Below, in pieces: positions 14,037-25,984 of a DNA stretch of 33,385 nucleotides (the first letter of the stretch is position 1; the number at the start of each line of letters is the position of its first letter). Both the position numbers and the translations under genes were made by a program. The DNA lies in NCBI GenBank assembly GCA_903879715.1, contig CAIRMR010000075.1:1-33385 (forward strand). The letters run 5' to 3'. This DNA is from an uncultured Bacteroidales bacterium (GTDB taxonomy: Bacteria; Bacteroidota; Bacteroidia; Bacteroidales; UBA4417). Under the pieces are notes generated by a model that had not been told where the DNA came from, searched no databases, and saw nothing but the letters and a program-made list of their open reading frames with translations.

Positions 14037-14767
14037 TACCAATACTTTATACGAAGCCTCTTAACATTATACATTATTCCCACTTTTGCTCCGATATAAA
14101 AATTACGCGATTTCCCATATTGATCATGGGTGTTTGCAATCTGCCAGGTAGATTTATTGATATCAGTGAATCCAATTGCGGAATTCAAGGAAATGAGAAT
14201 CATCGTCTTCCTTGAGTAATTGAGTGCATACATCCTGTTCAGTGAAAAGTTCATTGAAATATCAGTTTTGTTAAATCTTTCCTTTGTTTCTTTCACAATC
14301 ATTCCCTCAGGGTTTGGCAAAGGGGAGCCACCATCACGGGTATAATCCTGCTTTGCATTTAAAAGCAACATTATATCCGGCCCGAATGAAACCCAGGTTG
14401 GATACTGTGTTCCACGTATACTCCTCATAACCATGAGTGGTAATTCAAAGTACATTAGTTTTATTTTTCGTTGGGCAACGCCTCCTGCCTGATATCCCTT
14501 GTAATTCTGCCCTAGCTGGCTAGCCAGAAATGATCCTGTGAAACCCCAATCCCGGTTATGGAAATAACTCACCCCTACTCCACCGGTAAGACCAAAAGCT
14601 GCACTATATTCAATTTCCTGATTTCCATACGCATTCTGATTTACAATCCATGTGCTGTTTACCCCGCTGATAACATTAAACCACAATGAGCCTCTTTGTT
14701 GCGCATGCACTTCTACTTTGAGGAAAACAAGAAAAATTATCGCCAAACTCAGAATATACTTTTTCAT
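14036..14767 (-). CDS. Outer-membrane beta-barrel protein (PorT/OMP_b-brl_2 type), copy 1
   Basis: A protein of 243 residues with signal peptide MKKYILSLAIIFLVFLKVEVHA. It has alternating hydrophobic strands (GLTGGVGVSYFHNRDWGFTGSFLAS, YPTWVSFGPDIMLLLNAKQDY, RNFYIGAKVGIMYNV) and ends in tryptophan, as usual for Bacteroidota barrels. It closely resembles the gene at 15510-16241, sharing NxTWI(V/L)NQNAYGN, the N-R-D-G-G region and TDINxxxWQIxNTHD. The role is unknown; small barrels of this group can be structural, adhesive, or T9SS-related. Its start codon directly abuts the repeat element at 14762-14863, which must therefore supply the leader of this mRNA. Confidence 0.78.
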   Translation of the reverse strand: MKKYILSLAIIFLVFLKVEVHAQQRGSLWFNVISGVNSTWIVNQNAYGNQEIEYSAAFGLTGGVGVSYFHNRDWGFTGSFLASQLGQNYKGYQAGGVAQRKIKLMYFELPLMVMRSIRGTQYPTWVSFGPDIMLLLNAKQDYTRDGGSPLPNPEGMIVKETKERFNKTDISMNFSLNRMYALNYSRKTMILISLNSAIGFTDINKSTWQIANTHDQYGKSRNFYIGAKVGIMYNVKRLRIKYW

Positions 14768-14863
14768 CTGTTTATTTTTTAATTTTTACGGGTCAGATGG
14801 AACTCGCCAGCAATAATCATCCCTCTGTGTGACAATTTATTGGCATGGCTCGTTTCATGTGTT
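14762..14863. repeat. About 100-bp hairpin-forming repeat element, copy A
   Basis: This stretch is related to the insertion at 24734-24841. The cores 14783-14805 and 24755-24777 match at 22 of 23 bases (ACGGGTCA, then G or C, then ATGGAACTC, preceded by TTTTT). Weaker matches follow (AATAAT...CAT, CTGTG, CATG). The right border CGTTTCATGTGTT (14851-14863) is identical to the left border of copy B (24733-24745). Copy A lies between TTTCATCTG (the start codon side of the beta-barrel gene) and TTTCATGTG. Its inner part can form an imperfect hairpin (GCCAGCAATAA with TTATTGGC). Confidence 0.6.
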
Positions 14864-23726: not shown

Positions 23727-23761
23727 TTAGGGGTTAGGAGTTGGGGGTTAGGGGTTGGGGA
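23727..23761 (-). repeat. Heptanucleotide array abutting the M16 start codon
   Basis: On the plus strand five perfect 7-bp units follow each other: TTAGGGG, TTAGGAG, TTGGGGG, TTAGGGG, TTGGGGA. The mRNA leader thus reads CCCCTAA-type units directly joined to the ATG. The four G runs (23730-23733, 23743-23747, 23751-23754, 23757-23760) could form a G-quadruplex on the plus strand. Confidence 0.9.
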
Positions 23762-23765
23762 AGAT

Positions 23766-23890
23766 TGGGCGAGAGAGCGAGTGGGCGAGTGGGCGACTTG
23801 GCGAGGGGTGACAAAGCGAGGGGCGATAAGGCGAGGAGCGATAAGGCGAGGAGCGATAAGGCGAGAGGTGACAGAGCGAGGGGGCGAGAA
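23766..23890 (-). repeat. GCGAG-type 15-bp (7+8) tandem array in the M16 leader
   Basis: Units of 15 bp on the plus strand start at 23801, 23816, 23831, 23846, 23861 and 23876. Two are exactly GCGAGGAGCGATAAG, and the others vary (GCGAGGGGTGACAAA, GCGAGAGGTGACAGA). Before 23801 shorter 8-bp relatives occur (TGGGCGAG). A predicted promoter at 23901-23929 would place the array inside the 5' untranslated region. Confidence 0.85.
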
Positions 23891-24556: not shown

Positions 24557-25752
24557 ATGCTTAATATCAAAAAGCCTACCCTGCTCCTTAACGAAGATAT
24601 CTGCCGAAGCAATATACAAGCAATGGCAATAAAAGCCAGGGAGCATAAAGTGATTTTCAGGCCTCATTTTAAAACTCATCAGTCGGCGACAATTGGCGAA
24701 TGGTTCCGGGAGGAAGGCGTAACGGCTATTACCGTTTCATGTGTTATTATTTATTTTTTACGGGTCACATGGAACTCCATGACAAAATAATATCATACGC
24801 CTGTGAGTCAAAATTCGCTGATTTTGTCATGTTCGTTTCATCTGTAAGTATGGCCCAGTATTTTGCTAACCATGGATGGAATGATATAACAATTGCTTTC
24901 CCTGTTAACATTCTGGAAATTGATGAAATAAATCAGCTTGCATCAAATATAAATCTGCATTTGCTTATAGAATCAGAAGAAACAGCACGTTTCCTTAAAG
25001 AAAGACTTACTTCAAAATGTGGATTCTTTATAAAAATCGATACGGGTTATCACCGCGCCGGAATTGCGGCTTCAAATGTTTCATTGATTAATAAGGTATT
25101 ACAGGCAGTGCAACCGGGAAATTTTTATTTTGAAGGATTCCTGACACATAGCGGAAACTCCTATCATGCAAAGGACAGTGAAGAACTCACACGAATTCAA
25201 CAAACTACCACTGAAAATCTACTGAGATTGAAGAAGCATTTTCAACTTCAATATCCCGAAATCATTGTGTCGGTAGGAGATACACCTACATGCAGCCAAC
25301 TTCCGGTTTCACCAGGAATTGATGAAATTCGTCCTGGTAATTTTGTGTTTTATGATGTGATGCAATTCGCTCTTGGATCATGCAATCTGGAAGACATTGC
25401 TGTTGGATTGGCTTGCCCGGTAGTAGCAGTACATCCAAACAGGCAGGAGGCCATAATTTATGGAGGAGCTATTCATTTTTCCAAAGAACACACCATGCTC
25501 CTGCCCGACCCTGAACCTATTTATGGGCTTGCTGTCGGGTGGAATGGAGAAAAATGGGATACAGTTAATTTGACAGGAAAGATCAGGTCATTATCGCAGG
25601 AGCATGGTATACTATCATTAACTCAATCAGGTTGTAACCTGAAGCCTGGAGACCTGGTGGCAGTATTGCCGGTGCATTCTTGCCTGACGGCAAACCTGAT
25701 GAGGAAGTATTTGACTTTGGATGGAGATGAAATTGAAACAATGAATTTATAA
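24557..25752 (+). pseudogene. D-threonine aldolase/D-serine dehydratase-like PLP enzyme, broken by a 101-bp insertion
   Basis: The first frame (24557 to the stop at 24788-24790) encodes the N-terminal part with the PLP lysine K39 in FRPHFKTHQSA and reads up to GVTAITVS. The rest (from 24835, in another frame, to 25752) resumes with SSVSMAQYFANHGWNDITIAFPVN and continues through DTGYHRAGI, GDTPTCS and an end (PVHSCLTANL) with the metal-binding HxC of this fold III family. Removing the 101 bp between the two GTTTCAT copies (24734-24740 and 24835-24841) joins the frames without loss, giving a normal enzyme of about 365 residues. The inserted part has a stop and changes the frame, so the gene should be inactive unless the insert is skipped. 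The in-frame ATG at 24700 lies out of the true upstream frame and is not a natural start. The rest shows no decay, so the event looks recent. Confidence 0.85.
24734..24841. mobile_element. 101-bp hairpin-forming insertion with 7-bp direct repeats, copy B
   Basis: GTTTCAT occurs at both ends (24734-24740 and 24835-24841), as expected for a target duplication. The inside holds an 11-bp perfect inverted repeat, CATGACAAAAT (24778-24788) with ATTTTGTCATG (24821-24831), and a second small stem CATGGA/TCCATG (24768-24781). The core matches copy A at 14783-14805 at 22 of 23 bases. There is no coding capacity, so any movement would need an enzyme encoded elsewhere. Confidence 0.7.
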
Positions 25753-25777: not shown

Positions 25778-25942
25778 CCCCGGCCTGAAGGCCGGGGCAA
25801 TGGATATTATAAAATTTGATTTGTACTTAAACAAAATAAACCCCGGCCTGAAGGCCGGGGCAATAGATATATCTGAAGGGCGAGGCAATGGATATATAGA
25901 ATTTAATCTTTGTAACAAAATATTCCCGACCTAAGGCCGGGG
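25778..25942 (+). repeat. Array of palindromic CCCCGGCC repeats between convergent genes
   Basis: Two perfect hairpins CCCCGGCCTGAAGGCCGGGG (25778-25797, 25841-25860) are followed by two worn copies (about 25874-25885 and 25925-25942). Each is followed by CAATGGATAT or a near match, then an AT-rich spacer of similar composition. Start distances are about 63, 25 and 57 bp. The hairpins could also act as terminators for the flanking convergent genes. Confidence 0.8.
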
Positions 25943-25984
25943 CAATGGATGTGCAGAAATTCAACTTTTCCTTAAAAATCCAAA

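Follow-up and report, generated by a model that had tools for sequence, protein, structure and literature searches.

A family of short, non-autonomous mobile elements of Bacteroidetes with a proposed single internal guide, seen as a precise insertion in a PLP enzyme gene and at start codons

The window, by which we mean the whole 33,385 nt stretch of DNA from an uncultured Bacteroidales bacterium analysed here, carries at positions 24741-24841 of the + strand a precise 101 nt insertion in a gene for a fold-III PLP enzyme, which, to judge from the empty orthologous sites, was acquired after the split from the relatives examined. The inserted stretch is a copy of a dispersed, non-coding and non-autonomous family of mobile elements of Bacteroidetes, and we have very little doubt that this family is mobile. 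An earlier note on this DNA had proposed the recent insertion of a short mobile element, and further copies with conserved ends, together with the empty orthologous sites, support that proposal; the pairing of an internal guide with the target and the positions at start codons are features that go beyond it. We infer that the element transposes in single-stranded form, as IS200/IS605 and REP elements do, with one guide and an unidentified enzyme in trans, a joint statement to which we assign a probability of roughly 0.55. No description of the family was found in the literature searched, the scope of which left out most subscription journals.

Results

A precise insertion in a PLP enzyme gene

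Two copies of GTTTCAT, at 24734-24740 and 24835-24841, lie 101 nt apart from start to start, and the upstream and downstream reading frames join at these repeats, so that positions and frames bear out the earlier description of 101 bp between two such copies with the frames meeting there. The perfect 11 bp inverted repeat and the second stem that had been described with them are also present, the former as CATGACAAAAT/ATTTTGTCATG (24778-24788/24821-24831), which are the arms of a long hairpin at 24778-24831, and the latter as TTTCATGTG/CACATGGAA (24735-24743/24766-24774). The element proper is best taken as 24741-24841, and not from 24734, because the right GTTTCAT tracks the element subfamily whereas the left flank keeps only (T/A)TTCAT. 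These limits rest on the empty sites in relatives and on the junctions of the family. So delimited, the element ends in its own GTTTCAT, and the target TTTCAT (24735-24740; ATGAAA on the other strand), the sole conserved part of the left flank, stands to its left.

The length of the insert is no multiple of three, and the upstream frame (from 24557) meets a stop at 24788-24790, inside the insert. The 5′ fragment of the gene (24557-24740, + strand; 61 codons to ...TVS), recognised by eye alignment with intact orthologues, has no Pfam match when its 61 residues are taken alone, and contains the segment FRPHFKTH, which we take to be the cofactor-lysine region of fold-III PLP enzymes. The 3′ fragment (24841-25752, + strand), with 303 open codons and a stop, carries the domains of such an enzyme (PF01168, alanine-racemase-like N-terminal, 1.5e-12; PF14031, D-serine dehydratase, 1.1e-16) and has at most 83% identity to orthologues in other genomes. 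Both fragments are still open, in keeping with the earlier remark that the remainder of the gene is undecayed. Because the FRPHFKTH region and the rest lie in different frames, we infer that the gene as it stands is very probably non-functional. A frame of 350 amino acids (24700-25752) crosses the element in another frame into the 3′ part of the gene, and therefore a fusion without the enzyme N-terminus could be translated. By eye, three similar palindromic repeats of the type CCCCGGCCTGAAGGCCGGGGCAATGGATAT are seen directly 3′ of the interrupted gene (25780-25950), and a degenerate G-rich tandem repeat (ggcgaggggtgacaaagcga...) lies between two genes at 23740-23890.

A search with the downstream fragment covered 16 genomes of the genus, the window's own included, and matches in 10 of these gave 11 loci, one of them the window's own. 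The PLP gene is uninterrupted at this site in all 10 orthologous loci, from nine other genomes, which agrees with the statement in the earlier note that the protein family reads through without an insert. In the nearest relative, G003, the empty site is GTTTCATCAGTAAG (codons ACT GTT TCA TCA GTA AGT ATG GCT); at the same place the window reads GTTTCAT, then 94 bases more, a second GTTTCAT and CTGTAAGTATGGCC. A second empty site follows the same pattern of insertion: a gene preceded by two units in G000 has in G007 just one ATGAAA, immediately after AGGAGG. Copies can also persist, since in some cases two species share an occupied site (L039 and L013, L055 and L123, and L120 and L142, among others).

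Copies and distribution of the family

A search for copies elsewhere with conserved ends had been proposed as a check on the insertion, and many exist. BLAST with the 108 nt stretch gave 69 matches at E ≤ 10 in its own genome, many of them partial, and a second copy, in a different place at a contig end (C222), is 100% identical over 107 nt. The 15-mer ACGGGTCASATGGAA has 61 exact matches in this genome against 0 for the reversed control, which is more than chance. A covariance model built from 25 units gave at least 88 matches in the same genome and located the family in 14 of the 16 genomes of the genus, with at least 57, 52, 31, 16, 12, 11, 10, 8, 6, 4, 3, 2 and 1 matches in the thirteen others and none in two; all of these counts are lower bounds, 150 candidates per genome having been scored. 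Alignment A1, used below, omits units longer than 112 nt (11 of 36).

An exact 18-mer also occurs in Chitinophaga isolates and in one Chryseobacterium, 11 of 68 loci having been removed before counting as coding chance hits (L089, L092, L093, L097, L104, L119, L125, L129, L131, L133 and L144). Among 395 sampled genomes of the phylum it is present in the window's own genome only, so the family is either patchy or more diverged than an 18-mer allows. With regard to carriage by phages, the exact 18-mer was not found in viral_contigs. The Chitinophaga form is present in 8 of 60 genomes of that genus, and G491 alone, a single contig of 6,183,078 bases, has 49 matches.

Units of the family are mostly about 45-170 nt long, and many copies are arranged head to tail and share one TTTCAT; at many loci of G491, tandem arrays of about 45 nt units stand directly before a start codon. 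A 48 nt stretch (AATTCATTGCTTATTTTCAGCGG...) nested in the left loop, or CCTGCCCGCTACAGGCGGG-like palindromes between guide and hairpin, were seen in element copies L025, L029, L032-L035, L037, L043 and L041, L043, L054. Rfam contains no family that matches the element (a single hit, E = 0.68, is far below gathering), and a search with nine loci returned only a tRNA and a sub-threshold Thr leader. At L198 of Chitinophaga cymbidii the element lies between an apparent leader (a sub-threshold Thr-leader match) and a gene whose sequence resembles hisG.

Ends of the element and the target

The left flanks of 39 units from the window's own genome have only (T/A)TTCAT in common, with T in 33 and A in 6 before TTCA(T/A), a word that the scan itself demanded. 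The first bases of the element are GTG/CTGTT.., and it closes with ..GTTTCAT or, in another subfamily (5 units), with ATTTCAT, irrespective of what the left flank shows. Five of the 39 units (L021, L028, L036, L037 and the first of L034) were miscut at an inner GGTTGAT, and their true right ends are GTTTCAT in four and GTTTGAT in L036. As the right word follows the subfamily and not the left flank, the simplest view is that it belongs to the element as its terminus and that the left word is the target. The element's own end being TTTCAT, copies therefore stack head to tail.

A simple target duplication was rejected on the same ground, that the right word goes by subfamily irrespective of the left flank. 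The left and right words are both TTCAT and the bases before them do not vary together; strictly, this leaves room for a 5 bp duplication of a word that does not vary. An apparent preference for CTG in the right flank was dropped, some right flanks being further, diverged units.

One guide can pair at both junctions

An internal guide, ATGGAA (24769-24774, + strand; with CAC at 24766-24768), stands just 5′ of the long hairpin. On the TTTCAT strand TTTCATGTG pairs with CACATGGAA, with 96.9% of cells paired in 25 units, and alternatively ATGGAAC can pair with the right-end GTTTCAT (98.9% in 25 units). The triplet after the guide is perfectly complementary to the triplet before ATGAA in 121 of 142 units, a pool drawn from the Lentimicrobium group, the window's own genome included, from the order's other families, and from Chitinophaga and further isolates; the combinations are CTG/CAG (55), GTG/CAC (49), GCG/CGC (11), ACG/CGT (4), CTA/TAG (1) and ATG/CAT (1). 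No shuffle in 2000 reached 121 or rose above 65, a figure that is no strict probability, the 142 units being related by descent. In Chitinophaga and others a change in the guide likewise goes with a change in the right end, as in GGTTCCAT/ATGAAACC, TATTCCAT/ATGAAATA, GGCTCCAT/ATGAAGCC and more, and other subfamilies have different sequences in the hairpin arms. Single units fold with only modest energies (z -0.9 to -2.0). Since the target is nearly invariant, covariation there does not test its pairing with the guide, and the covarying triplet is part of the element.

Two further arguments were abandoned. Splicing of the insert as RNA was considered because the guide pairs at both junctions, and was rejected given the absence of an Rfam intron match, the unit length of 101 nt and the presence of copies in both senses relative to genes. 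A conserved T.G/A.C position had been used to argue for one strand; with wobble on one strand in 3 cases, on the other in 4 and on neither in 17, this argument was dropped.

Transposition mechanism and the search for an enzyme

Single-strand transposition appears most likely because a target word lies on the left, the same word lies on the right and one guide at the hairpin foot can pair with both. IS200/IS605 elements are described as having a guide just 5′ of the hairpin foot, a target in the flank and an element-terminal copy of it (PMC6006769). We propose that base pairing by ATGGAA would determine where both cuts are made, on the left in the flank and on the right at the end of the element, and that the unidentified enzyme would act on these sites in trans. 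Under such a mechanism a single-stranded or circular form may exist in which ..GTTTCAT is joined to GTGTTATT...

No autonomous copy was seen among 119 units, 96 of which have the right-end word within 200 nt. In the remaining 23 the right end was either not found or lies 218-890 nt away, and several of these are at contig ends or have a mutated end. In the DNA covered here no transposase was recognised in the 119 units, nor among the unidentified open reading frames in the spans of these 23. When six Y1 proteins were compared with the open reading frames of 57 loci, one frame was hit, 3.8 kb from an element, and among the best 40 rows of shared neighbour genes around copies none points to an enzyme.

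These results bear on whether the element is instead a REP-type repeat spread from a distance by the cell's RAYT (TnpA-REP), for instance one of the Bacteroidetes-specific subclass 2.6 with 'atypical' structures, a possibility that we judge unlikely. Candidate enzymes are at hand: Y1 or RAYT genes occur in all 16 genomes of the genus, the window's own genome has 8 full-length matches to the Y1 transposase family and nine weaker ones, and copies lie 2-3 kb from a Y1 gene in three places (C8 and C65 of G000 and C59 of G003). The hairpin, guide and tandem arrays resemble REP clusters, and PMC6006769 mentions a Bacteroidetes subclass with atypical flanking structures that have copies elsewhere in the genome. 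Against this, the element is beside Y1/RAYT at none of the 48 loci with such hits, as far as the flanks examined go and with a scan that would miss long-loop units, and the hairpin foot lacks GT[AG]G. Among the flanks listed, RAYT genes have other repeats beside them; most of the Y1 genes listed at G000 loci L056-L072 are flanked by short palindromes of their own, e.g. tccctgacggga, cctcgtagaggc and gcgcgcttgcagcgcg. Two genomes of the genus possess Y1 genes and are without the element according to the covariance model. Conversely, two Chitinophaga genomes with copies have no match to PF01797, and in one of them the RAYT profile detected just one RAYT-like protein, L213 (Chitinophaga cymbidii C1:1903985-1904395), whose HUH motif is degenerate (EDEVHLLW) and which is possibly domesticated. 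The want of a partner enzyme also counts against our own reading, as do the single hairpin, the modest folding energies and the weak start-codon bias in G003 and G012.

Copies at start codons

On the opposite strand the target TTTCAT reads ATGAAA. The window contains a second copy of the family, recognised by sequence and model match and of the CTG/CAG guide type (14768-14858, + strand; target 14762-14767), and the start codon ATGAAA of a 243-amino-acid outer-membrane beta-barrel gene (PF13568; 14036-14767, - strand) is its left junction. Of 45 classifiable clusters, 27 are at a gene start, 1 is coding and 17 are intergenic, against 79, 406 and 130 for control TTTCAT sites (start versus intergenic, Fisher p = 0.0067). 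That test comprised the window and 57 loci of other genomes with an ORF limit of 90 codons, so that L124 and L143 were typed intergenic; it also typed the window's PLP-gene insertion as intergenic, and its coding count is a lower bound. In another start test, starts made up 10 of 27 clusters in the window's own genome and 14 of 96 control sites; for other genomes the figures were 22 of 35 clusters and 87 of 601 control sites. Here 9 own-genome and 17 other-genome clusters were unclassifiable, and four apparent gene starts (window 14762, L049, L128 and L142) were typed 'internal'.

The share at starts differs among genomes when an ORF of at least 50 codons from that ATG is required: 5 of 19 outermost units in G003, 8 of 20 in G012 and 9 of 12 in other families of the order, where a unit was recognised in only part of 20 loci (12 outermost units, L229 being doubtful). 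In Chitinophaga G491 an ORF of at least 50 codons begins at 30 of 33 loci, as opposed to 27 of 103 control ATGAA sites, and in 25 of these 30 the ATG is 33-36 nt after the start of the guide. Other Chitinophaga genomes have 21 of 23 loci at starts, 9 of 32 loci having been omitted for want of a hit at one mismatch. The Chitinophaga test leans towards the finding of a start, the best of several ATGs being set against one ATG in the control. By guide type, copies at starts and elsewhere number 36 and 13 for CTG/CAG, 21 and 21 for GTG/CAC, and 2 and 7 for GCG/CGC.

At such positions the element separates the gene from its native leader, and what was the start codon now heads a tiny decoy frame, which often stops early (MK*, MKP*, MKRT*) and in other subfamilies runs for about 13 codons; the gene behind gains the element's A-rich stretch before its ATG. 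Copies inside genes, as in the PLP gene, would mostly be lost by selection, which by inference explains part of the start bias. Those at start codons may be tolerated or kept owing to the A-rich stretch, which would provide a workable translation start. Because the bias is near-total in Chitinophaga, it suggests, again as an inference, retention or preference as well.

A second role at start codons is possible; regulatory function is untested, and there are no expression data. Tentatively, and with considerable doubt, we suggest that single-guide elements in several Bacteroidetes lineages home on ATGAAA starts and become a translational switch, in which the guide for the insertion site would now pair with the upstream decoy start or with the gene's own start codon, giving regulons of unrelated genes tuned by tandem units. 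A rival reading, which we find decidedly unlikely, makes the element primarily a regulatory RNA whose UUCCAU pairs with an upstream decoy AUGAAA or the real start codon, multiplied across genes, with mobility incidental. The 30 of 33 G491 loci at start codons speak for it, as do the covariation of both alternative stems in Chitinophaga and the two states within 1 kcal/mol in 12 of 18 short G491 leaders. It is hard to reconcile with the copy in the PLP gene, which sits within the gene in the opposite sense, or with the 46 of 142 pooled units classed as 'other' against 75 as 'start' and the low share in G003. Pairing is preserved in 63 of 75 units at starts and in 41 of 46 elsewhere, so that starts hold no advantage, and an A.C mismatch is nearly constant on the mRNA strand. 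When 44 leaders were folded as RNA, the decoy-side pairing of the guide was the more stable in 34, and the mean computed probability of being unpaired was only 0.22 for the gene's ATG, compared with 0.36 for the decoy's.

Discussion

Single-strand transposition by one guide, the reading we prefer, invites comparison with several known systems. Like IS200/IS605 elements and PATEs, the element inserts 3′ of a fixed short target that its own end repeats, has no demonstrated target duplication and has a guide 5′ of the hairpin foot that is able to pair with the flank target and the right end, following the rule given in PMC6006769. It differs in that one guide and one hairpin, between the guide and the right end, serve both ends, whereas IS200/IS605 elements have one hairpin per end; the expectation of a subterminal hairpin at each end is not met, and the left stem includes the target itself. 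Further differences are the six-base target with three more paired positions inside the element, the absence of any TnpA found inside or directly beside copies, and the start-codon positions.

With REP/BIME repeats and their RAYTs the family shares short palindromic, non-coding units that are dispersed and form tandem clusters. Alignment A1, however, contains no GT[AG]G at the hairpin foot, the feature that defines REPs in PMC6006769; insertion is sequence-specific, after TTTCAT; no RAYT gene was found flanked by the element; and the core sequence is kept across genera of the phylum. Because the search for a partner enzyme failed, we do not file the element as a member of either IS200/IS605 or REP. 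Cis-regulatory leaders with small upstream frames, such as attenuators and riboswitches, are similar in their place between native leader and start codon, in two mutually exclusive stems and in a tiny upstream frame; the element differs in being mobile, in standing before unrelated genes, in having no Rfam family and in its untested function.

The earlier note had called the insert 'MITE-like or otherwise mobile', and of these the second stands, while the first applies only loosely. A conventional MITE, mobilised by a DDE transposase and leaving a 5-7 bp target duplication (TTCAT/GTTTCAT), would account for one short word at both ends and for short, non-coding, dispersed copies, of which one lies in a gene. 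This is quite improbable given the lack of terminal inverted repeats, a right end set by subfamily whatever the left flank, a target word that is almost invariant and not random, and the absence of a demonstrated target duplication or of any parent transposon found. That the insert is an assembly error or normal coding sequence is scarcely credible, even in a draft genome of 223 contigs with some copies at contig ends, in view of the 10 orthologous loci without it and the same family with the same ends in independent genomes.

Our reading raises the questions of which enzyme moves the element and whether the two pairings regulate translation. If it is right, the family would represent guide-directed mobile DNA of very small size, with units as short as about 45 nt, that often lands where the protein stays intact but the translation start is replaced, and would illustrate a way for mobile DNA to change the leaders of numerous unrelated genes.
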